Shown: piece after piece, positions 581 through 28,339 of the stretch
Layout: each line of letters begins with the position of its first letter
Position numbering within the stretch: the first letter of the stretch is position 1
Assembly: GCA_029882975.1 (NCBI GenBank)
Contig: JAOUJW010000046.1
Coordinates: 1 to 34,500 of the forward strand
Reading direction: 5' to 3'
DNA from: Gammaproteobacteria bacterium
Lineage (GTDB): Bacteria; Pseudomonadota; Gammaproteobacteria; SZUA-152
Length of the DNA: 34,500 nt
Position numbers and translations under genes: made by a program
The notes under the pieces: generated by a model
Databases searched by the model: none
What the model saw: the letters and a program-made list of their open reading frames with translations, nothing else
Told to the model about the DNA's origin: nothing

Positions 581-2362
581 TCACTTGACTTTAGTGGCAT
601 AAAACGAAGCAATCGCGTCCATCTCAGTTAGACTCAAAACATCCGACATGGCATGCATCATGGAGTTTTCGCGGGATTTGCTTTTGTAAGCCTGTAAAGA
701 TTTTAATAAATAGGTTTTTATTTGGCCTGCAATGCGTGGTTTATCCGGTTGCTCGATGTGCCCGTGACAGCGGTTGCATTTTTGTGCCAGCGATTTGGGA
801 TCTTCAAAGGCAAGGTTTTCCACCTGAACACGAGTGAGCGTGGAATAGTATTCAGCCAAGGCAGCGATTTGCGATTTGTTCAAAGACTTTGTGGCATTCT
901 GCATATCATCATGGGGACGTTTTCCATCCTTGTATTCCGACAGTGCCTTGCTTAGATAATGGCGGTCTTGTCCGGCCAGACTGGGGACATCGCTGGAAGT
1001 ACTATTACCATTATCACCGTGGCAACCATTGCACCCGGATACTTGTTCAGGGGACTCCATTTTTCTACTCGATCTTCGCTGCGGTTTTTGTTTGGAATAA
1101 TACAGGCTGATTTTTTCCACATCTAAATCTGAAAGATAGGTGGTGGCCGCTTGCATGATCGGTACGTTACGTTTTCCGGATCGGTAAGCATTAATGCCGT
1201 TGACTAAGTAGGTTAAGGGTTGTCCGGATAAACTGGGGGTTCCGCTCAACTCGCTGTTGCCGTTTTTGCCGTGGCAGCCATCGCATGCACTGGCCAGGAT
1301 TTTTCCTTCAAGCAAAGGGTTAAAGCCGGAAACACCGGCTGTTGCTACTTGGATTGGCGTTTGCGCCGCATAGTATTGTGCCAATTGTTTAATCATTGCC
1401 ATTTTCAGGTCGGTTACTGCGGCCTTCATGGCGTTATCGTTACGTTTGCCGTCGCGGTAGGCCAACATTGCTTTTTCCAGGTAGGAGGGATTCTGACCGC
1501 TTAAGCTGGGAATGTTGGGATTGCCACTGTTACCGTTGAGGCCATGACAGCCGTTGCAGAGTCCGAGGTACGATTTGGGTGGGGATTTCACTTTAGCTGG
1601 AGCTACGGATTTTCTGGGTAAGCTTGCATAATAGGCTGCCAATTGTTTTATTTGAGCCGTGCTGGTGCTCAAACTGAATGCCTGCATCATGGAGTCGGTT
1701 CGAGTTCCGGAAAAATAGTCCGAAAATGCTTTTTCCAGATATTCAGCGGAGAGGCCCGCTAAGCTGGGTAATCCTTTGATATGGCTGTTTCCGTCTGCAC
1801 CGTGACACGCTTTACACGGAGTGGCCAAAGCGTTGCCTTGTTGTATCAAGGCGGCCGGGTCAGCTTCCTTGTGGTCGGATATTTTTGGTAAAGTCCAAGG
1901 CGTTTTCAGCTCGGCGTAGTACAGCACAAGACTGCGCAATTGTGCTTCTTCGAGTTTGGCATACACTTGATGTACGCCGCTACTGGGCTTGATGTGTTGG
2001 TCATCGATGCTTTTTGCGTTGGTACTTTTTGTGCTGACACTGTCGACCAGTCCGGCTTTGTGATTCAAAGTAACCGCTAACATGTAATCGAAATTTTGGC
2101 CGGCGATATGTGGCGTATTGGTTTTTAAATTACCGCTGCCGTCGGTTCCATGACAGTCCTTGCAGTGACGTAATAATTTGCTTGATGCCGGGATAGGTTT
2201 TGTTTCCGCCGTGTCTGTTTTGGCCGTTGCATCGTCTTGGTTTGAGGCGATGACGGTTGTTGTCAAAAAAAATGTCAGCAACATTACGGCTGCGAAACTT
2301 GAAAACGCTGCGCCTGCGGGCTTGGCTATTTGTCTGTTGGATAGTTCTGATAAAACTGGCAT
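581..2362 (-). CDS. Six-haem tandem c4/c553-type cytochrome c
   Basis: The protein has 593 residues: an N-terminal export signal (hydrophobic 23-39) followed by six class I cytochrome modules of about 85-115 residues. CxxCH haem sites lie at 67-71, 183-187, 269-273, 360-364, 444-448 and 529-533. Each module repeats the pattern CxxCHGxxGNS, (I/L)AGQ or LSGQ, YL, YRxGKRN, then a distal Met and a closing YY or FY helix (Met227, 312, 403, 487 and 568/569 in modules 2-6). Module 1 lacks the distal Met. The protein should be a periplasmic electron carrier or wire; most relatives have one or two modules, so six is unusual. It lies 84 bp downstream of the radical SAM gene and upstream of the OB-fold gene. 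The start is the first ATG; the site before it is weak and the basic leader is long, so a later start is possible. The partner oxidoreductase is not in the window. Confidence 0.9.
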   Translation of the reverse strand: MPVLSELSNRQIAKPAGAAFSSFAAVMLLTFFLTTTVIASNQDDATAKTDTAETKPIPASSKLLRHCKDCHGTDGSGNLKTNTPHIAGQNFDYMLAVTLNHKAGLVDSVSTKSTNAKSIDDQHIKPSSGVHQVYAKLEEAQLRSLVLYYAELKTPWTLPKISDHKEADPAALIQQGNALATPCKACHGADGNSHIKGLPSLAGLSAEYLEKAFSDYFSGTRTDSMMQAFSLSTSTAQIKQLAAYYASLPRKSVAPAKVKSPPKSYLGLCNGCHGLNGNSGNPNIPSLSGQNPSYLEKAMLAYRDGKRNDNAMKAAVTDLKMAMIKQLAQYYAAQTPIQVATAGVSGFNPLLEGKILASACDGCHGKNGNSELSGTPSLSGQPLTYLVNGINAYRSGKRNVPIMQAATTYLSDLDVEKISLYYSKQKPQRRSSRKMESPEQVSGCNGCHGDNGNSTSSDVPSLAGQDRHYLSKALSEYKDGKRPHDDMQNATKSLNKSQIAALAEYYSTLTRVQVENLAFEDPKSLAQKCNRCHGHIEQPDKPRIAGQIKTYLLKSLQAYKSKSRENSMMHAMSDVLSLTEMDAIASFYATKVK

Positions 2363-5212: not shown

Positions 5213-6130
5213 TTAAAGCTCCGATTCCTTTTGCACTGAAAACCAGGCTTGGGCCAGTAAGGGGGTGATATCCACCCGATTGGTAGGGTGGCTGACCGTA
5301 TTACAGCTCCAGATCGCCTGGATTCCGCTCTGTCGCATTTTAGAATAGATGTTGTCGTCGAACAGGGCATGGGTGAGGGCACAGCTGACACTGGCGGCTC
5401 CTCGTTGCTGTAGTAAAAGTGCCGCTTGCATAATGGTTTCGCCGGTGCTGGCCATATCGTCAACAATGACGATATTACGCTGTTTTACCGGCATGTCGGG
5501 AAGTTGTATCTGCACTCGACGGTCCCCCAGGCGTTGCTTGTCGGCTACAAACCAAGGTAGTTGACCCGGCTCCGCGGCGCTGTGTACCCACTGTTGCGAT
5601 TCACTATCCGGTCCCAGTAACACCGGCTTGTCTATCTGTTGTGCAATAAAACGACCGATTTGCTGCGCCGCGGTAATATTGAGGGCACGATGGGCCGGGA
5701 CGGCCTGATGCAGTTCGCTGATGCGATGCAAATGGGCATCTACGGTGATCAGTTGATCTACGTGGTCGCTGAGAAACTTACCGATAATTTCCTGACTGAT
5801 GGCTTCACCCGGTTTAAACGCCGCGTCCTGGCGCATATAGCAGAGATAAGGGGCAATCAGGGTGAGATCTTTGCAGCCCAGCCGACGGGCGGTGCCGGCG
5901 GCAAGCATCAGCTCCACCAGTTTGCTGTTGGGATGATCCAAACAACGTAACAAAATCAGTTGCCGGGCCGACATTTCCGGCAGTGTGATTCTGCATTCTC
6001 CATCCGGAAAATAATGTACTTGAATTTGCGCCCGTTCTATTCCCAAATGTTGCGATAAGAGACGAGCCTGCTCCTGATCCTCATCGGCAAAGGTGACCAA
6101 AAATGTATCATGGGGTTTAGAGTTCGGCAT
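5213..6130 (-). CDS. Ribose-phosphate pyrophosphokinase (PRPP synthetase) homologue
   Basis: The protein has 305 residues. PRPP synthetase features in order are [13 protein letters not shown] (39-51), the ATP/ribose-phosphate segment [19 protein letters not shown], the metal-site strand TVDAHLHR (around 131-136) and the PRPP-binding loop [12 protein letters not shown] (to residue 232). The family makes 5-phosphoribosyl-1-diphosphate from ribose 5-phosphate and ATP. The sequence is divergent from housekeeping Prs (for example DAHLHR in place of the usual DLHxxQ), so it is likely a second, specialised paralogue. The start at 6130 sits inside the last codons of the phosphorylase gene (14-nt overlap), implying translational coupling. 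A longer in-frame extension is merely a shadow of that gene. Confidence 0.88.
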
Positions 6131-7646
6131 AGGGCGTGGGAATACGTGACTGATCACCAATACGATAGCCGCTGTCTTGCTGTGCCAGTGCGCAGGCGAA
6201 ATGGAAGTCGGCGGGAAACTGGGCATGTATGCGATACACCACGGTGTCAGCTTCCACCGGATCCCCCAGTTTTTTGAACAAATCCACCCCGGCGCCTTTG
6301 TCCATAGGGGCTCCGGCCAAACGAGCGATTTTTGACATCTGGAAATTGTTAATGGCCACCACATAGCCGGTTTTACCGGCGACCACATCCATGGTGCGTT
6401 GGCCCAGCTCAAAGTTCGTGGTTTGTTTACCCTGGGCGGCAATGATGGCTTGCATTTTTTTCAAGGCTCGACCGGAGTCCAGGATGTCGCGAGCCAGCGC
6501 AAAGCCATTGCCGCCACGAACATCGGGGTCAAATTCCAGCAGACGCCCGGCCAGGCGTAGGGATTTTTGGCGTAAATCATTGGGTGCACTATCCAGATTG
6601 TTCAACACCTGCATGACATCCCGGGCTTCCAACACCGGTCCAATGCCGCGGCCCACCGGTTGGTTGCCGTCACTGAGTACCACGTCCAATTGGAGATTCA
6701 GCCGGTCTGCGGTGTATTCGAACAGCTTACGCAGCTGCAAAGCTTCTCGCATATGACGTACTTTGGCGCTGGTGCCCACCGGAATATCGATCAGCAAATG
6801 GGTGGAGCCCGCAGCGAGTTTTTTCGACAATATGGAAGCTACCATTTGCCCCATGGAATCAATGCCCAGCGGACGTTCTACCGAGATCAGGATGTCATCC
6901 ACCGGTGCCAGTCCGGCGGTGCCGCCCCATGCCAGGCAGGTTCGCTCCTTGGCCACAACCTGATGTAACTGTTGCGGTGTCAGTTCAACATTTGCCAGCA
7001 CTTCCATGGTGTCTGCCGTGCCGGCAGGTGAGGTTATGGCCCGGCTGGAGGTTTTGGGCATCAGCGTACCATGGGCGGCGACGATGGGTGCAACTATCAT
7101 GGAAGTGCGATTGCCCGGAATTCCACCAATACAGTGCTTATCCACCACCACTGAGTCGTGCCAGTCGAGACGGTCGCCGGATTCGGTCATGGCCTGGGTA
7201 AGGTGGAGAATTTCCTCACGGTCCAACCCCGTTTGTCCTGATGCAACCAGGAATGCCGCCAGTTCCATTTTGGAATAACGATTCTTGCCAATATCATTGG
7301 TGATGGCTCGAAAGTCCTCCAGGTTCAAGCGTTCCCCATTGATTTTGCGGCGTACGGCATCCATCGAACGGGGTGGAGCGGCTTGGGATACACTGACCGC
7401 CGTGCCTTCATCGGCATTCAATTGTTCAAAGGCTTGTTGTGACAGTCCCAGTTCACCGGGAGAGACAATGCCGGCATCATCAACTACATTGAGAACGGCG
7501 TAGATACTGATGTGGTTGAGTTTGATTATAATTTTGGAAAGAGCCTGGAATCCTTCAGCACGATAAACCTCGCATTCTCGATGTAAATAGGCGACGTTTT
7601 CGAGGTAGGTATCTATGCCCACCTTGCGTAGTTGCAATGTGTCCAT
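6117..7646 (-). CDS. Archaeal-type AMP/thymidine phosphorylase (DeoA superfamily)
   Basis: The protein has 509 residues, the length of archaeal AMP phosphorylases and clearly longer than bacterial DeoA (about 440). The extra N-terminal ~90 residues form a beta-rich domain like that of archaeal AMP phosphorylase. The core then has the phosphate site [13 protein letters not shown] (170-182) and [16 protein letters not shown] (201-216), the pattern of TIGR02645 proteins. Known archaeal members release the base from NMPs with phosphate to give ribose 1,5-bisphosphate; bacterial members are little characterised. It overlaps the PRPP synthetase homologue by 14 nt, so the two probably work on the same ribose-phosphate pool. 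No Shine-Dalgarno site is obvious before the ATG. Thymidine phosphorylase activity remains possible. Confidence 0.85.
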
Positions 7647-21250: not shown

Positions 21251-22768
21251 TCACTCCAAATCAAACCGAATCCCCTGCGCCAGCGGTAACTCATCACTCC
21301 AGTTTATCGTGTTGGTCTGCCGCCGCATATAGGCTTTCCAGGAATCCGATCCGGCTTCGCGACCGCCGCCGGTTTGTTTTTCTCCGCCAAAGGCACCTCC
21401 AATTTCGGCGCCCGAGGTGCCAATGTTGACATTGGCAATGCCACAATCACTACCCACCACAGATAAGAAGGTTTCAGCGGTTTTCAGGTCCTGAGTGAAA
21501 ATGGCGGATGACAAACCTTGAGGCACATCGTTTTGCAGGGCGATGGCGTGTTCCAGGGTGTCGTAGGGCATGAGGTAGAGTATGGGGGCAAAGGTTTCCT
21601 GCTTGACCATGTCTTTTTGTTCTTCCATTCGAACTAACGTGGGCTCCACGAAATAACCGGGGCCTGGCAGGGATTTGCCGCCTGCCAGGATTTGGGCGCC
21701 GTCATTTTTTAGTGTCTCTATGACCTGAACAAACCGGTCCACCGCGGTGGCATCAATTAAGGGGCCCATGAGCACATCAGTTTGCAGCGGATTACCGGGT
21801 TTGATTTGGGCGTATGCATGACGCAGTTTTTCACAGACTTCATCCATGATGCTGTGATGGACCAGGACTCGGCGGGTAGTGGTGCAGCGTTGCCCGGCGG
21901 TACCGGCGGCGCCAAAGACGATGGCGGGGATAACCAATTTCAAATCCGCGCTTTGGTCGACGATAATGGCGTTGTTGCCGCTGCATTCCAATAGGTATTT
22001 ACCCATGCGCGCAGAGACGGCGGCAGCCACTTTGTGTCCGGTGGCGCTGGAGCCGGTGAATGACATTAAGCCCACTCTTGGGTCGTGGATAAATCGCTCA
22101 GAGGTGCTTCTATCCTCAGGCAGAAACAGTGAAAAAACACCGGGGTAGCCGGCAACTTCCATGACTTGATTGCAAATGTGCTGCACGGCCACGGCGCACA
22201 AGGGCGTTTTGGATGAGGGTTTCCACACCACGGTATTACCGGCAATGGCGGCAAGAAAGGCGTTCCAGGACCACACCGCCATGGGAAAATTAAAAGCGCT
22301 GATGACACCGACGATGCCCAGGGGATGCCACTGTTCGTACATACGGTGTTGTGGGCGTTCCGAGTGCATGGTTTTGCCGTAGAGCATGCGGGATTGGCCC
22401 ACGGCCAAGTCGGCAATATCAATCATCTCCTGGACTTCGCCATCACCTTCCTGTTTGATTTTCCCCATTTCCGTGGCGATAAGACTACCCAAGGGGTCTT
22501 TGTATTGTCGCAGTTTGTCGCCAATGGCGCGTATCAATTCACCGCGTTTGGGCGCAGGAAGGTGGCGCCAGCGTTGAAATTCCGCTGCGCTGTTTTGCAT
22601 CACTAATTCATATTGCTCGGCGGAGCAGGTTTGCACTTGAGTGATTTGTGCTTCTGTAGCGGGGTTGATGCACGGTATGGTTTTACCGTTGCTGCTGATC
22701 CAGCCGTGGCCACCGCAATAGGTAGCGCTGGGATTGGGTTCAATGTGCAGTTGTTTTAATAAGTCCAC
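21251..22768 (-). CDS. Aminoadipate-semialdehyde dehydrogenase (ALDH7/AmaB type)
   Basis: The protein has 505 residues of the aldehyde dehydrogenase fold. Catalytic residues are visible: Asn160 in SAFNFPMAVWSWN, Glu261 in LLECSGNNAIIV and Cys295 in AGQRCTTTRR. The GQRCTTTRR and GNNAIIV blocks are characteristic of the ALDH7A1/AmaB group, which oxidises 2-aminoadipate 6-semialdehyde to 2-aminoadipate with NAD(P). The usual Leu-Gly-Gly after the Glu is Cys-Ser-Gly here. The start is a GTG with AAGGGAG about 6 nt upstream. It follows the saccharopine dehydrogenase gene by 12 bp, so the pair forms a lysine-degradation operon. Confidence 0.9.
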   Translation of the reverse strand: MDLLKQLHIEPNPSATYCGGHGWISSNGKTIPCINPATEAQITQVQTCSAEQYELVMQNSAAEFQRWRHLPAPKRGELIRAIGDKLRQYKDPLGSLIATEMGKIKQEGDGEVQEMIDIADLAVGQSRMLYGKTMHSERPQHRMYEQWHPLGIVGVISAFNFPMAVWSWNAFLAAIAGNTVVWKPSSKTPLCAVAVQHICNQVMEVAGYPGVFSLFLPEDRSTSERFIHDPRVGLMSFTGSSATGHKVAAAVSARMGKYLLECSGNNAIIVDQSADLKLVIPAIVFGAAGTAGQRCTTTRRVLVHHSIMDEVCEKLRHAYAQIKPGNPLQTDVLMGPLIDATAVDRFVQVIETLKNDGAQILAGGKSLPGPGYFVEPTLVRMEEQKDMVKQETFAPILYLMPYDTLEHAIALQNDVPQGLSSAIFTQDLKTAETFLSVVGSDCGIANVNIGTSGAEIGGAFGGEKQTGGGREAGSDSWKAYMRRQTNTINWSDELPLAQGIRFDLE

Positions 22769-22780
22769 TGCGTACTCCCT

Positions 22781-23875
22781 TTAAGCGTAATATTTTCCAA
22801 AACGATTGTTAATGAACGTGTCCAGACCAATTTGTTCCTGGGTCACAAATCCCCGGTAGTTTTTTATATTTTGCAGCACGATATCCACTACGGCACAAAC
22901 ACCGGCTGCCGTGGTGACTTGAATGGAGGACCAGAGCTTGTTTTGTATGGTTTCAGGATAGACTTTTTTCACATAATTTTTTTCAAACAAGTCACCGCCG
23001 ATACGGCCACTCACCGCCACGTAAACCAGTACTACATCCTGTAGAGTTTTAGGAATGGCGTTTTCCAGAATACGCTTGAGTGTGGTCCGGTCCTGGTTCA
23101 GTTTGAGGTCGTTCATCAAGAGTTTGATGTTTTTGCAGTGACCGGGGTAGCGCAGGGTTTTGTAGTTCATCGTCTCCACTTTGCCGTGATAGGTATCGGC
23201 CAGAGTACCCAAGCCGCCGGAGGTGTTGAAGGCTTCATACAATACACCGTCCAGAGTAATGGTTTCATAGCCCTCCAAAGGGAGCAGGGGAGAAATATCC
23301 CCGTTCTCAATGCCAAAGCAGGTATTGCCGTACTCATTGATAAGCCCGTCGGTGGACCAGGTAAGGGAATATTTTAAGGTGTTATTGGGATTAACCGGTA
23401 AAGCCCCCACTCGCATTTTGACCGTGTCGAGACTATCAAATTGTTGCATAAGCGCATTGGCGGCGATGCTGATAAAGCCGGGTGCCAGGCCGCATTGAGG
23501 CATAAAAACATTTTGGTGGCCGGCGCTGACTTGCCGTACATGTCGGGTTACTTCCACATCTTCAGTGAGATCAAAATAGTTGACTTGTAACTGGGCAGCG
23601 ACATCCGCCACTATGGGATTGCAATAATAGGGTAAAGCCGAGACTACGGTTTGGATATTATGGTTGCGAATAGCCTTCTCCAAATCCGATTGGTTTTGGG
23701 CATCCAGTTTTAAGACGACCACGTGGTCCAGTGATAATTGTTTGCGTAGTTCATTGGCTGCATCCAAATTCATATTTCCCAAGCAAATTTTATAGTCAGG
23801 GCTTTGCGACAACATGCAAGTGATCAGGGAGCCAATTTTCCCTGCGCCCAACACCAAAATGGCATGTGCTGACAA
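22781..23875 (-). CDS. Saccharopine dehydrogenase / lysine 6-dehydrogenase family protein
   Basis: The protein has 364 residues. The Rossmann start ILVLGAGKIG has the GxGxxG dinucleotide site, followed by VVSALPYYCNPIVADVAAQ and NYFDLTEDVEV. The substrate domain has MPQCGLAPGFISIAANAL, characteristic of saccharopine reductase (LYS9-like) proteins, and GALPVNPNNTLKYSLTWS. It should yield 2-aminoadipate semialdehyde, either from saccharopine or directly from lysine (lysine 6-dehydrogenase), which sequence alone cannot separate. The start is a TTG at 23875 with GAGGAG 7 nt upstream; the longer frame to 23944 has no homologous N-terminus. The next gene oxidises the product, which supports the assignment. 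Confidence 0.88.
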   Translation of the reverse strand: MSAHAILVLGAGKIGSLITCMLSQSPDYKICLGNMNLDAANELRKQLSLDHVVVLKLDAQNQSDLEKAIRNHNIQTVVSALPYYCNPIVADVAAQLQVNYFDLTEDVEVTRHVRQVSAGHQNVFMPQCGLAPGFISIAANALMQQFDSLDTVKMRVGALPVNPNNTLKYSLTWSTDGLINEYGNTCFGIENGDISPLLPLEGYETITLDGVLYEAFNTSGGLGTLADTYHGKVETMNYKTLRYPGHCKNIKLLMNDLKLNQDRTTLKRILENAIPKTLQDVVLVYVAVSGRIGGDLFEKNYVKKVYPETIQNKLWSSIQVTTAAGVCAVVDIVLQNIKNYRGFVTQEQIGLDTFINNRFGKYYA

Positions 23876-24112
23876 TGAGTTTCTCCTCAAGACTGATGGT
23901 AAAAGGACGACAATGTTTACAGGCCGTTTGCTGTTTTCACCCATCGGCGACCACGTTTTACGCAGCTATACTTGGATCAATACGGCAAGCAATTTTAAGT
24001 ATAGCCGCAGTTGCTTTACGTCGCTTTCGCTGCTGGAGTACTGTCCGGGGTTGGGTCGGCCACCCGGGTCTTTTGCAGCATAGCCTGTTCTAAAATGCAG
24101 GAGGATCGTTTA

Positions 24113-25303
24113 ATGGCTACCACAAATACACCGACGCCGTTTACACAATTTGCCCAATCTTTGGTCAATGACGCCTGCTATGTCGACCCCAAAGTGGATA
24201 CTTTGGAAAAAAACTGCAGCGATACCCGTATCACCATTCCCAGAAGCGAAGGTGAGTGGTCCATATTGGATTTGACTCCCTTTGAAGCCCGGGCCCAGGC
24301 GTGTACCGCGAGACCCTATTTTGAAAAGGTGCGCAATTATACGGAATTGGTTCAGGCCTACGAAAAAGTGCGAGCGGATTTTGTGTTTGAAACTCAAGTT
24401 CCGGGAGCTTCGGACCATGTGTCCGAGTATGCCGGACAGTTCATGCAGGGTATTTTTTCCCAGGCTCAAAGCTTCATGGATGAGGCCCGAGTCCAGCTCA
24501 TTTGCCGTTGGATTGTCGACCTGGATGCCTACACCGCCGTTAAGGCCATTGAGTCCCTGCTAAACAGCAAAGCCGATCTCACACTGTTACAAATTGCCGC
24601 TCAGCATCAATGGCAGGTTCTGTTTGATCATTTGGCCATACGTTGCGGTTCTCAGGCTAATGGGGATGCAGAAAGAGTGGTCGAAATGCTCAAGACCCAC
24701 CACGGTTATGTTTCACCACAACTGGATCACGAAGCCTTTTACCAATTCCCGGACGGTTGGAACGCTTATCCTTTATACAAAATCCTTGAAAACGGACAAG
24801 TATTGCGTCTGTTTATTGATCAATCCGGTGCGGATCATCCGCAACAGATCATACAGCACTGGAACCGGGTTTATGGTTATACCGCCCATCATTTGGCTAT
24901 TCGTGCCACTGTTACCAAAGACGGTACACGTCATGCGGTTTCTCTGGGGGATATCGTAGACGCTTTGCAGGCGCAGGGAGTGGCTTCTATGACACCCACC
25001 GGCCGCTATACGGCCGGTTTATTGGTACAGGTGTTTACCCAGCCGGAGAAAAATGCAGGCATTCCCACTGCCTTGAAGCAGCAAATTGACACGGTGGCAC
25101 CGGGCCTGGGAACCACGGTGGAAAACGCCAAATTGTTGGAAATTGTTTCACGGCGGGAAATGGTTCCGGAAAAGGCGCAGCGTTTTTTTGCCTTATACGG
25201 TATCACCTATGATGCCCATAATCCCTTGCATTCGGCTCCGGTGTACCAGTACTTTTTGCCGGCTCAGGCGGCTCATGTTATCAAAACCTCGATTCAGGCT
25301 TGA
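24113..25303 (+). CDS. DUF1338-like protein, probable 2-oxoadipate dioxygenase/decarboxylase
   Basis: The protein has 396 residues. Blocks that I align to HglS/DUF1338 are FDHLAIRCGS (His173), YGYTAHHLAIRA (His259/260), LGDIVDALQAQGVASMTPTG (Asp280) and VYQYFLPAQAAHVI at the end. The family uses Fe(II) bound by two His and one acidic residue to turn 2-oxoadipate into D-2-hydroxyglutarate. The protein is divergent: an N-terminal extension of about 100 residues and shorter spacing between the metal-site blocks. AGGAGG lies 8 nt before the ATG at 24113. It is divergent from the aminoadipate-semialdehyde operon and convergent with a D-2-hydroxyglutarate dehydrogenase-type gene, which supports this role. 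Confidence is good in the fold, moderate in the reaction. Confidence 0.68.
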   Translation: MATTNTPTPFTQFAQSLVNDACYVDPKVDTLEKNCSDTRITIPRSEGEWSILDLTPFEARAQACTARPYFEKVRNYTELVQAYEKVRADFVFETQVPGASDHVSEYAGQFMQGIFSQAQSFMDEARVQLICRWIVDLDAYTAVKAIESLLNSKADLTLLQIAAQHQWQVLFDHLAIRCGSQANGDAERVVEMLKTHHGYVSPQLDHEAFYQFPDGWNAYPLYKILENGQVLRLFIDQSGADHPQQIIQHWNRVYGYTAHHLAIRATVTKDGTRHAVSLGDIVDALQAQGVASMTPTGRYTAGLLVQVFTQPEKNAGIPTALKQQIDTVAPGLGTTVENAKLLEIVSRREMVPEKAQRFFALYGITYDAHNPLHSAPVYQYFLPAQAAHVIKTSIQA

Positions 25304-25342
25304 GACCACAGTTCAGGTCGTATCAACAAATCTAAGACTGGA

Positions 25343-28339
25343 TCAAGCTTGAGACCGTAACCGCTGCCGTAAAATAACCGCTGGGTGAACGGTGTCTATG
25401 TCGGTAAGATCCTTTATCTGGTGGTGGCAGCTGAACCCGGTGGTGACCACCACGGTGTTTTTTGGGGTCTGGCCTAGTGCCGGTAGCAGACTGAGGTTGG
25501 CGATGGCTTTAGACACGGAAAAGTGCTTGGTTTCATAACCAAATAGGCCGGCCATGCCGCAACAACCGGAAGGAATCACCTCAACCGAGGTGTTGGGTAA
25601 TAGGGACAGCGTGTTGACACTGTCTTGGGTCTTGCCAAGGGATTTTTGGTGGCAGTGCAGGTGCAAGGCAATATGCATGGGTTCATCGCTGAAGTCCAGC
25701 TGTGCAAAGGCCGGGTGTTGGTATTGCACAAATTCCTCAAACAAAACAAAGCGCTGTAACAGCTGCGGTGGCAGATTGAAATCCAATACCCGATTGGCTT
25801 CATCCCTCAAAGTTAGCCATTCCGACGGTTCCAGGCCGATAATGTAGGTATCCGGCAGTGCTTGCTGCTCTATCCAAGCGATAATCGCGCTTAGGCGTTG
25901 TTTGGCAAGTTGAAACATTCCCTGACTGAGTACCGACCGCACTGAGTCAAAGCAGGGGGACAGTAACACGTGAAAACCGGCAGCTTCCAATAACTCCACC
26001 ACGGCTTCACCGGTGGCGCTGTGGAAATACTCCGTAGTGAAATCATTCAGCAAGATTACGCTCTGTTCCCGCAGTACAGCTTTCGACTGCCGGGTTCGGT
26101 GTGAAAACCATAAACTAAAGCGGGTAGCCTGCATGCGGGGTAATTGTCGTTGTGGATGCAGATTCAGTAAGGGCCGCAGAAGTGTTTGCGCCAGCCAGTT
26201 TACTACAGGACTGGGTAAGAGGCTGGCCCAACTACAAAGACGATCCAGTTGAGCAATCAGGCGAGTTTTGAAGGGGGTGCCGTATTGCCGTTGAAATAGG
26301 TTAAGAATCCGTATCTTGGCTTGTGCCATGTCCACACCGGCAGGACATTCTACTTTACAGGCTTTACAGGCAATGCACAGTTCCAGCGTTTGCTGCAACG
26401 CTGCGGTGTCGGATGCGGATAGACGGGTGTCAGGCAGGCTGAGTATTTGCCGAATCACATTGGCCCGCCCCCGCGTCACATGCAGTTCATCCCGTGTGGC
26501 TTGGTACGAAGGACACATGCTTCCTTCTAACTGGCGACAGACAGCAGCGCCGTTACACGATTGTACCGCCGTCAGTATGGATTGTCGTTGCTCCTGTGAT
26601 TTGTCTTGTGGTATTTCCTTTACGAGTTGCTGTGTGTGTAGCGATGTGTGTAGCGATGTTTGTAGCGATGTGCGCTGTGACAATGCTGTCGGAATGCGCA
26701 GACCGTGTTCCATGGGCAAGGGTCGAATGATGTTATTTGGATTAAATAAATTTTTAGGATCGAAATGCGCTTTGACTTCGCCGGCGGCCTGCATGAGTTC
26801 ATCGCCCAGCATGCGTTGTAAAAACGGCGAACGGGCACGGCCGTCACCGTGCTTGGCACTTAGCGTGCCGCCGTAGCGTAGCAATGCCTCTAAGATGGCT
26901 GTAGTGATCGGTCTCAGTTTGGCGCGATCTACCGGGTCACCCAAGTCCAATAAGGGGCGTATGTGTACCAGGCCCATGGACACCGAGCCATAGTATACAG
27001 CGTCACAACCCTGTTGGCGCATGATGTTTTGGGCTTCGGTTACAAAGGCGGCCAAATGTTGTACTGGTACTGCACTGTCTTCCACAAAAGTAAGCGCCTT
27101 TTTTCTTGATGCCATTCCCATTAACATTCCCAGGGCAGAGCGTCGCAGTTGCCAAACCGAGGCGTTGAGTTCATGGGGAATGGTCGTGATGTGTTGGCAT
27201 AGCCGTGCGCGGTGCAGTTCGTGTTCCATGTGCGTGGCAGCCTGGCAACAAGAATCGGCGTTATCGGCGGAGTATTCCACAATGAGCATGGCTGCGGGTG
27301 CTCCTTGGAGACCGTCTCTTATCCCGTTCTTACACCAAGGAAGCTTTCCGCCGAATTTGGTTTGCGCCAACTGTAAAAGTGTGTGGTCCAGCAGCTCAAT
27401 AGCAGCTGCATCGGAGTGTCTTATCAGCGGTACAGCCTGCATGGCTTTGTGCAGGGACTCAAACTCCAGGCACAGCATGTACGTGTGGGGGATGCTGCTG
27501 CTTAGCCGTACGGTGGCCTGGTATACCAGCGCCAGGGTGCCCTCACTACCACAGATCAGTCGACTCAGGTTGAAGTTGTCTCTTGACCTGTTTGTTGTAT
27601 GGTTTGTCAAAGTCGCGGCCAAATCGGGTAAGGCGTAGCCACCATTATTTATGATACCTCCATCCATTGTATCTGCATTGGCTCCGCTTGTTAGGGCTTC
27701 ACGGTAGCGAGTAAGGGTATCGACAACCTGGTGGGTCAGTTGCCGGCCACGAAATTTTGCTGTGTTGTTGGCGTCTAAGGCGGCTGGGCTCATAGGGCCA
27801 AAGTAAACCTGCTCTCCCGGGCTAACGATGCACTGCAATTGTTCGATATGATTGGCCGTCGAGCCGTCACGCGGTGCATGAGCTCCCCAGGCGTTGTTGC
27901 CAATGACTCCGGCAATGTTGCAACGGCTTTTGGTGGATGGGTCAGGGGCAAAGCGCAAACCGTATGGCGCCACCGCAAGATTGAGTTGATCCAACACCAC
28001 CCCGGCTTGAACCACGGCCCTACGTTGTTGCGGGTTGATATGGATGATCCGGGTTAGATGGCGGGAACAATCAACAATAAGTGCATCTCCCACGGCTTGG
28101 CCTGCCAAACTGGTGCCTGCTGAACGTGGGATTAAGGGTATGTCGAACTCATAGGCAAAACGGACTAAGGTGAGGCAGTCCTGCAAAGACTTGGGGCGGA
28201 CCACACCCAGCGGCAGAATTTCATACATGGAAGCGTCAGTGGCGTATAACATTCTGCTGACATCATCGGTCAATAACTCACCTTGCAGTTGTTGTTGCAA
28301 TCCACGAAAGATCTGTTTCTTTTTCGCTGTTGGTTCCAT
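25343..28339 (-). CDS. YdiJ-like FAD/Fe-S dehydrogenase (D-2-hydroxyglutarate type)
   Basis: The protein has 998 residues and three parts. The FAD domain (about 35-540) has PRSAGTSLAGQ (71-81), NIAGVIGNNAWG and, near its end, HGDGRARSPF. The ferredoxin-type part has CNGAAVCR-MCPSY (595-612) and CIACKACKVECP (655-665). The C-terminal CCG part has HLHCHQKSLG and SGCCGMAGLFGYE. The length and order equal E. coli YdiJ, recently assigned as D-2-hydroxyglutarate dehydrogenase, giving 2-oxoglutarate and passing electrons to a respiratory acceptor. A linker of about 30 residues between parts one and two contains a 12-bp tandem repeat. It converges on the DUF1338-like gene with a 39-bp gap. D-lactate or other 2-hydroxyacids remain possible substrates. 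Confidence 0.85.
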   Translation of the reverse strand: MEPTAKKKQIFRGLQQQLQGELLTDDVSRMLYATDASMYEILPLGVVRPKSLQDCLTLVRFAYEFDIPLIPRSAGTSLAGQAVGDALIVDCSRHLTRIIHINPQQRRAVVQAGVVLDQLNLAVAPYGLRFAPDPSTKSRCNIAGVIGNNAWGAHAPRDGSTANHIEQLQCIVSPGEQVYFGPMSPAALDANNTAKFRGRQLTHQVVDTLTRYREALTSGANADTMDGGIINNGGYALPDLAATLTNHTTNRSRDNFNLSRLICGSEGTLALVYQATVRLSSSIPHTYMLCLEFESLHKAMQAVPLIRHSDAAAIELLDHTLLQLAQTKFGGKLPWCKNGIRDGLQGAPAAMLIVEYSADNADSCCQAATHMEHELHRARLCQHITTIPHELNASVWQLRRSALGMLMGMASRKKALTFVEDSAVPVQHLAAFVTEAQNIMRQQGCDAVYYGSVSMGLVHIRPLLDLGDPVDRAKLRPITTAILEALLRYGGTLSAKHGDGRARSPFLQRMLGDELMQAAGEVKAHFDPKNLFNPNNIIRPLPMEHGLRIPTALSQRTSLQTSLHTSLHTQQLVKEIPQDKSQEQRQSILTAVQSCNGAAVCRQLEGSMCPSYQATRDELHVTRGRANVIRQILSLPDTRLSASDTAALQQTLELCIACKACKVECPAGVDMAQAKIRILNLFQRQYGTPFKTRLIAQLDRLCSWASLLPSPVVNWLAQTLLRPLLNLHPQRQLPRMQATRFSLWFSHRTRQSKAVLREQSVILLNDFTTEYFHSATGEAVVELLEAAGFHVLLSPCFDSVRSVLSQGMFQLAKQRLSAIIAWIEQQALPDTYIIGLEPSEWLTLRDEANRVLDFNLPPQLLQRFVLFEEFVQYQHPAFAQLDFSDEPMHIALHLHCHQKSLGKTQDSVNTLSLLPNTSVEVIPSGCCGMAGLFGYETKHFSVSKAIANLSLLPALGQTPKNTVVVTTGFSCHHQIKDLTDIDTVHPAVILRQRLRSQA
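26637..26672. repeat. Three 12-bp tandem repeats inside the YdiJ-like gene
   Basis: TGTAGCGATGTG is present three times in a row (26637-26648, 26649-26660 with final T, 26661-26672). The 12-bp unit keeps the reading frame and encodes the repeating tetrapeptide TSLH/TSLQ in the linker between the FAD and Fe-S domains. Copy number could vary by slippage. Confidence 0.85.

Follow-up and report, generated by a model that had tools for sequence, protein, structure and literature searches.

A probable hydroxyglutarate synthase outside the DUF1338 family models in a predicted gammaproteobacterial L-lysine breakdown locus

Introduction

Which enzyme acts on 2-oxoadipate where predicted genes for the oxidation of L-lysine stand beside an oxygenase gene that no current family model recognizes? 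The question is raised by a locus in a gammaproteobacterial genome of 5.18 Mb (99.4% complete), contig 46 of which supplied the 34,500-nucleotide stretch analyzed here (the window). The initial annotation had placed four open frames at 21251–28339 and read them as a route from lysine to 2-oxoglutarate that runs through a DUF1338 enzyme. An open-frame check of the window confirmed the frames, all four of which are present, and the features of the locus are as follows:

21251..22768, minus strand: P2, L-piperidine-6-carboxylate / aminoadipate-semialdehyde dehydrogenase (GTG start; NF050084, 747.4 bits; antiquitin/AASADH PDB chains)
22781..23944, minus strand: P3, L-lysine 6-dehydrogenase-like (PF16653/PF03435; 3abi, E 3.2e-22; probable TTG start at 23875)
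23876..24112, no strand: divergent intergenic region between P3 (TTG 23875) and P1 (ATG 24113), read from the sequence; the divergence is conserved
24113..25303, plus strand: P1, HGLS-like VOC oxygenase of 396 aa, predicted 2-oxoadipate dioxygenase/decarboxylase (AlphaFold model, invariant residues)
25343..28339, minus strand: P4, YdiJ-like FAD + 4Fe-4S oxidoreductase, candidate D-2-hydroxyglutarate dehydrogenase (PF01565, PF02913, Fer4)

The P1 gene starts with an ATG at 24113, and a GGAGG sequence ends 8 bases 5' of it. Elsewhere in the window (5213–7646, minus strand), a gene for an archaeal-type thymidine/AMP phosphorylase overlaps a ribose-phosphate diphosphokinase frame, a possible nucleotide-salvage pair; the phosphorylase scored 610 bits against TIGR02645, over the cut-off, and 507 of 535 bits against the AMP phosphorylase model. 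A 593-aa protein encoded at 581–2362 (minus strand) has many CxxCH motifs, seen by eye, and a similarity of its end to the diheme shuttle PdsA that stays below cut-off.

Results

P1 belongs to an unnamed protein family

The initial annotation took P1 for a DUF1338 protein, and a profile search with PF07063 had been set beforehand as the check. The search was empty at E ≤ 10, a range limited by the HMMER filters, which discard most matches above ~0.1, and PF07063 had 0 matches at E ≤ 0.001 across the window's genome. The sole Pfam match of P1 at E ≤ 10 was a weak one to an ankyrin model (0.022); no NCBIfam family was assigned, the sole weak match being to a sulfite reductase model (0.043). Searches of PDB sequences returned no match with P1 itself and none at E ≤ 10 with a profile of 16 P1 relatives. 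The HPPD model TIGR01263 had no match to P1 at E ≤ 1 and, at E ≤ 0.001, matched nothing in the window's genome. With the PF07063, NCBIfam and PDB sequence searches all without a match, membership of P1 in DUF1338 by sequence was dropped. Judged by these searches, P1 is a member of an unnamed gammaproteobacterial family, which existing models leave apart from DUF1338/HGLS.

Relatives of P1 (45–57% identity in alignment A1) were found in 10 loci of GTDB species genomes, all 10 records being titled MAG, and in 8 of the 57 genomes around the window's genome, its own among the 8. P1 was present in 13 of 369 sampled genomes of the class, again with the window's own included, and a phylum sample (n = 349 genomes, the entries listed being all of the same class) yielded the window's own genome only. 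For L038/L010 and L037/L006 (G291), a further, incomplete copy of P1 was seen on a different contig of the genome, which may be a paralogue or an assembly effect.

Profile–profile alignment of the P1 family with a set of short DUF1338 proteins (hhalign, E 0.0079) paired H173 and R177 of P1 with H43 and R47, and H260 with H167; E343 fell outside the alignment. Against short DUF1338, the P1 profile scored 27.9 and the reversed control 27.3, and 2 of 200 column shuffles scored higher. In view of these controls, homology of P1 to DUF1338 is not claimed at the sequence level, where the similarity is not significant and a common origin not established. The P1 profile gave nothing significant against the long DUF1338 proteins (E 0.17). 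The short and long DUF1338 sets themselves scored 23.5 against each other (E 0.032), or 26.5 (E 0.012) with two sequences added, which is no better than P1 against the short set.

The predicted fold of P1 is closest to solved HGLS structures

An AlphaFold2 model of P1, built from 16 sequences, had a pLDDT of 90.1 and a pTM of 0.90. Its top match in VIA-align, by which 995 of the 1000 best chains were aligned, was 6w1k (Z 17.9 over 231 residues, rmsd 3.1), the rice hydroxyglutarate synthase (HGLS) bound to 2-oxoadipate. Ranks 2 and 3 among the 995 chains were held by 3iuz (Z 15.0) and 3lho (Z 14.5), which, like 2rjb, are DUF1338 structures (PMC7286885). The VOC fold of the model is therefore most like solved HGLS structures, with 6w1k, 3iuz and 3lho in the lead. 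HMS and HPPD entries scored Z 12.4–13.4 (13.4 for the HMS 2r5v, 12.9 for the HPPD 1cjx), and P. putida HglS (6w1h, Z 12.0) and YdcJ (2rjb, Z 11.7) came below HMS and several HPPDs. Foldseek also returned VOC proteins for the model, with HPPD first (E 4.8e-5), methylmalonyl-CoA epimerase and HMS among the others, and 3iuz in 28th place (E 3.9e-3).

L063, which is a genuine short DUF1338 protein, was modeled (pLDDT 85.1) as a yardstick for VIA-align and gave Z scores of 37.2 with 3lho, 32.3 with 6w1k, 24.5 with 3iuz, 19.5 with 6w1h, 19.1 with 2rjb and 14.5 with HMS. P1 is thus further from the HGLS structures than L063 is from any of them. Even so, the model of P1 resembles the plant/short HGLS type more closely than HMS/HPPD, by a modest lead (17.9 vs 13.4). 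By our reading, the predicted secondary structures of the two types differ in that short DUF1338 proteins have helices between the VOC halves, whereas the helices of P1 precede the first half.

Active-site residues of HglS have putative counterparts in P1

In HglS, the metal ligands are H70, H226 and E294, and the specificity residue R74 holds the distal carboxylate of 2-oxoadipate; the HHE triad is kept in 86% of 2417 PF07063 proteins (PMC7286885). Residues 172–177 of P1 read D-H-L-A-I-R, with the H-x3-R spacing of H70/R74, and this motif, the HH at 259–260 and E343 all lie in predicted strands. The eight positions inspected (H173, R177, H259, H260, Q306, E343, R347 and H388) were invariant in 24/24 aligned members of the P1 family, an alignment that holds two near-identical pairs. 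An arginine four residues after the first putative ligand histidine, R177, is accordingly present in every aligned member, as it is at H+4 in 16/16 aligned DUF1338 proteins, where the ten long proteins have HGAIR in invariant columns and the six short ones have DH-[IV]-A-x-R plus a conserved ANH. The five HPPDs over the cut-off have DH[LI]THN, the histidine of which we take to be HPPD's ligand histidine, and the residue at H+4 is N in 5/5. By these correspondences, H173, either H259 or H260, and E343 would be the metal ligands of P1, in a geometry that we infer along with the choice between the two histidines, and R177 would hold the distal carboxylate.

P3 as a probable L-lysine 6-dehydrogenase, and P2

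P3 contains PF16653 and PF03435, domains of the saccharopine-dehydrogenase type. Its homologues begin near P3 residue 24–30 and a TTG at 23875 has GGAG upstream, so the gene probably spans 22781–23875 and encodes 364 aa; homologues at neighboring loci have unbroken frames of 363 to 387 aa, with one extending to 422. The best solved relative of P3 in a PDB sequence search was 3abi (E 3.2e-22), an L-lysine 6-dehydrogenase (LysDH) according to PMC10413350. Matches to eukaryotic saccharopine dehydrogenases were weak (E 5.5e-7). P3 thus combines the domain type with a LysDH as its nearest solved structure. A lysine-ketoglutarate reductase would presumably carry PF05222, its expected N-terminal domain, and the single PF05222 gene found in the genome encodes an alanine dehydrogenase, with 417 bits against TIGR00518 (cut-off 391.85), which argues indirectly for a LysDH entry. 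Of the two entries allowed by the initial annotation, L-lysine 6-dehydrogenase is therefore favored over saccharopine. Another gene of the saccharopine-dehydrogenase-like kind, with 27% identity to P3, is present at G000:C34:695-1741.

The reading of P2 as an aminoadipate-semialdehyde dehydrogenase (AASADH) was upheld by a score over the curated equivalog cut-off of NF050084 (747.4 vs 730 bits). Its nearest PDB chain is the aldehyde dehydrogenase 10fm, and antiquitin/AASADH chains are among the best 16.

The order of P2, P3 and P1 is conserved

P1 is carried by 22 distinct contigs, no two with the same gene, and by one 3' fragment (L010). At L007, the contig has just 258 bases before P1, and this locus was left out of the neighborhood count, leaving 21 informative loci. 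A P3 homologue is divergent from and adjoins P1 in 19 of these; P2 lies directly after P3 in 18 of the 19, and in the remaining one (L043) the contig ends within P3. The P3 frame of L005 is broken into two parts. At L040 and L044, the two loci that depart from the pattern, urease accessory genes and GcpE/Uma2 genes take the place of lysine genes, and no match to P3 was found in their genomes. Conservation of the P2–P3–P1 order across these loci goes beyond chance. Behind P1 in L007 (1430–3610) are an arginase-like gene, below cut-off, and an ornithine aminotransferase gene, which belong to the breakdown of other basic amino acids.

P3 was found in 49 of the 369 class genomes: 11 of the 13 with P1 vs 38 of the 356 without it (Fisher p 5e-9, without correction for relatedness among the genomes). 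At the level of families in this sample, 6 of the 7 with P1 also have P3. PF07063 was present in 28 of the 369 genomes and showed no genome-wide association with P3 there (5/28, p 0.40). Mutual exclusion of P1 (13 of 369 genomes) and PF07063 (28 of 369) was considered and rejected: they share 0 genomes, but chance alone would give this result (p 0.61). Neither oxygenase occurs in 33 of the 49 genomes with P3, so the P3–P2 pair can also end elsewhere.

Three genomes of one genus (G314, G210 and G072; loci L124, L125 and L126) have genes for LysDH, AASADH and a short DUF1338 protein on one strand, the last over the PF07063 cut-off. As in the window, genes for the three predicted functions adjoin one another in these clusters, which differ in having a genuine short DUF1338 oxygenase and three co-directional genes. 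From this order it follows that P1 occupies the slot of a genuine HGLS. The union of DUF1338 with a lysine-dehydrogenase entry, proposed by the initial annotation, therefore exists in these three genomes, but the gene in the window has no match to the DUF1338 profile. An OxyR gene near the LysDH–AASADH–DUF1338 cluster (scanned in L124 and L126) fits the Francisella-type model. Ten proteins encoded near a P3 or DUF1338 gene in genomes without P1 were scanned and included no evident enzyme for 2-oxoadipate; four of them lacked a model match at E ≤ 1e-30.

P4 and the aminotransferase step

P4 is a fused FAD/4Fe-4S protein with PF01565, PF02913 and Fer4 domains. No gene of the genome is over the cut-off of NF049975 (YdiJ D-2-hydroxyglutarate dehydrogenase), which is 1350 bits; P4 scores highest, at 485.6 bits. 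The solved chains nearest to it are lactate and glycolate oxidizing enzymes. P4 is adjacent to P1 in at least 4 of the 22 loci (the window, L003, L043 and L047, in families f1 and f37), a lower bound given that five of these contigs break off within 1.3 kb of P1 on its downstream side. Of the co-occurrence expected of the four gene families, the linkage of P1, P3 and P2 was borne out (18–19 of 21 loci) and that of P4 was seen in few loci. The proposal of a YdiJ-like D-2-hydroxyglutarate dehydrogenase accordingly survives in part: P4 is YdiJ-like and the step is plausible, but the bit score and the sparse adjacency stand against it. This is the likeliest role of P4, as a candidate with perhaps an even chance of being correct.

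No gene specific for an aminoadipate aminotransferase was found among the 10 scanned of the 16 PF00155 matches in the genome. L086 was considered for this role and not assigned to it; besides 2egy (aminoadipate aminotransferase, E 1.3e-46), it resembles the MocR-like regulator PdxR, with a score under that model's cut-off.

Discussion

In the proposed pathway, P3 would oxidize the epsilon-amino group of L-lysine to give aminoadipate semialdehyde / piperidine-6-carboxylate, which P2 would oxidize to 2-aminoadipate, and an aminotransferase encoded elsewhere would convert this to 2-oxoadipate. P1, as an Fe(II)- and O2-using enzyme with a VOC fold, would decarboxylate and hydroxylate 2-oxoadipate to 2-hydroxyglutarate, and P4 may oxidize D-2-hydroxyglutarate to 2-oxoglutarate. 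The conversion initially assigned to P1 is thus retained as a prediction, now from structure, invariant residues and gene context and not from DUF1338 membership. We consider it likely that 21251–25303 is an L-lysine breakdown unit, with P1 acting as a hydroxyglutarate synthase hidden at the sequence level, in a pathway that starts with L-lysine 6-dehydrogenase.

With the known HGLS/DUF1338 proteins (P. putida HglS, E. coli YdcJ, rice FLO7 and Arabidopsis AT1G07040), P1 shares the VOC fold, rice HGLS being its top structural match, as well as the H-x3-R motif, the HH, the E and the lysine context; it differs in having no PF07063 match and in its distance from P. putida HglS (Z 12.0). HMS and HPPD share the fold at Z 12–13, and their chemistry is of the class proposed for HglS (PMC7286885). 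P1 could be a VOC oxygenase of the HMS/HPPD type whose substrate is a 2-oxo acid other than 2-oxoadipate and whose tie to the lysine genes is regulatory. The HMS/HPPD Z scores of 12.4–13.4, which exceed that of P. putida HglS, the first place of HPPD in Foldseek and the lack of significance of the P1–DUF1338 sequence link would all fit such an enzyme. We nevertheless regard it as unlikely: the three best VIA-align matches are HGLS/DUF1338 structures, P1 has R at H+4 where HPPDs have N, TIGR01263 is without a match in the window's genome, lysine genes adjoin P1 at 19 of the 21 informative loci, and a genuine DUF1338 gene fills the same slot in three genomes.

Two further readings, each slightly less probable still, concern the ends of the pathway. 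The P3–P2 pair might make 2-aminoadipate as an osmolyte, with P1 acting on a side product and no complete route to 2-oxoglutarate. In PMC4334477, the lysdh and aasadh genes of R. pomeroyi have neighboring locus tags (SPO0234 and SPO0235) and its LysDH pathway leads to aminoadipate, an osmolyte, under high salt. The 33 of 49 P3 genomes without either oxygenase, which indicate that LysDH–AASADH pairs serve other ends too, such as osmolyte aminoadipate, and the scan of 10 PF00155 proteins that found no aminoadipate aminotransferase are in keeping with this. The window differs from the R. pomeroyi pair, whose product is described in PMC4334477 as the osmolyte, by the addition of an oxygenase gene; P1 is tied to P3 far above background, and its residues match those of a 2-oxoadipate enzyme. 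The same low probability applies to entry through saccharopine, in which P3 would act as the saccharopine dehydrogenase of a pathway whose lysine-ketoglutarate reductase is encoded elsewhere, a reading compatible with the proposed role of P1. The saccharopine-dehydrogenase domains of P3 and its weak match to the eukaryotic enzymes would suit this entry, but 3abi, its best solved relative, is given as an L-lysine 6-dehydrogenase in PMC10413350, and the only PF05222 gene of a 99.4% complete genome is an alanine dehydrogenase, in a search that covered PF05222-type reductases.

Returning to the reading of P1 as a hydroxyglutarate synthase, a broader proposal is more tentative, with a somewhat less than even chance of holding: the P1 family may be a separate branch of the 2-oxo-acid-decarboxylating and -hydroxylating VOC oxygenases, beside HPPD/HMS and DUF1338, that is specialized for 2-oxoadipate and closes a CoA-free, O2-dependent gammaproteobacterial route from L-lysine, by way of L-lysine 6-dehydrogenase, to 2-oxoglutarate. 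Among the literature matches listed, there was no report of a bacterial lysine dehydrogenase joined to the conversion of 2-oxoadipate to 2-hydroxyglutarate, which is no proof of absence. If P1 has the predicted function, a step of lysine breakdown that has been tied to DUF1338 would also be performed by a family unnamed in Pfam and NCBIfam, and genomes judged by PF07063 searches to be without the 2-oxoadipate step may still have it.
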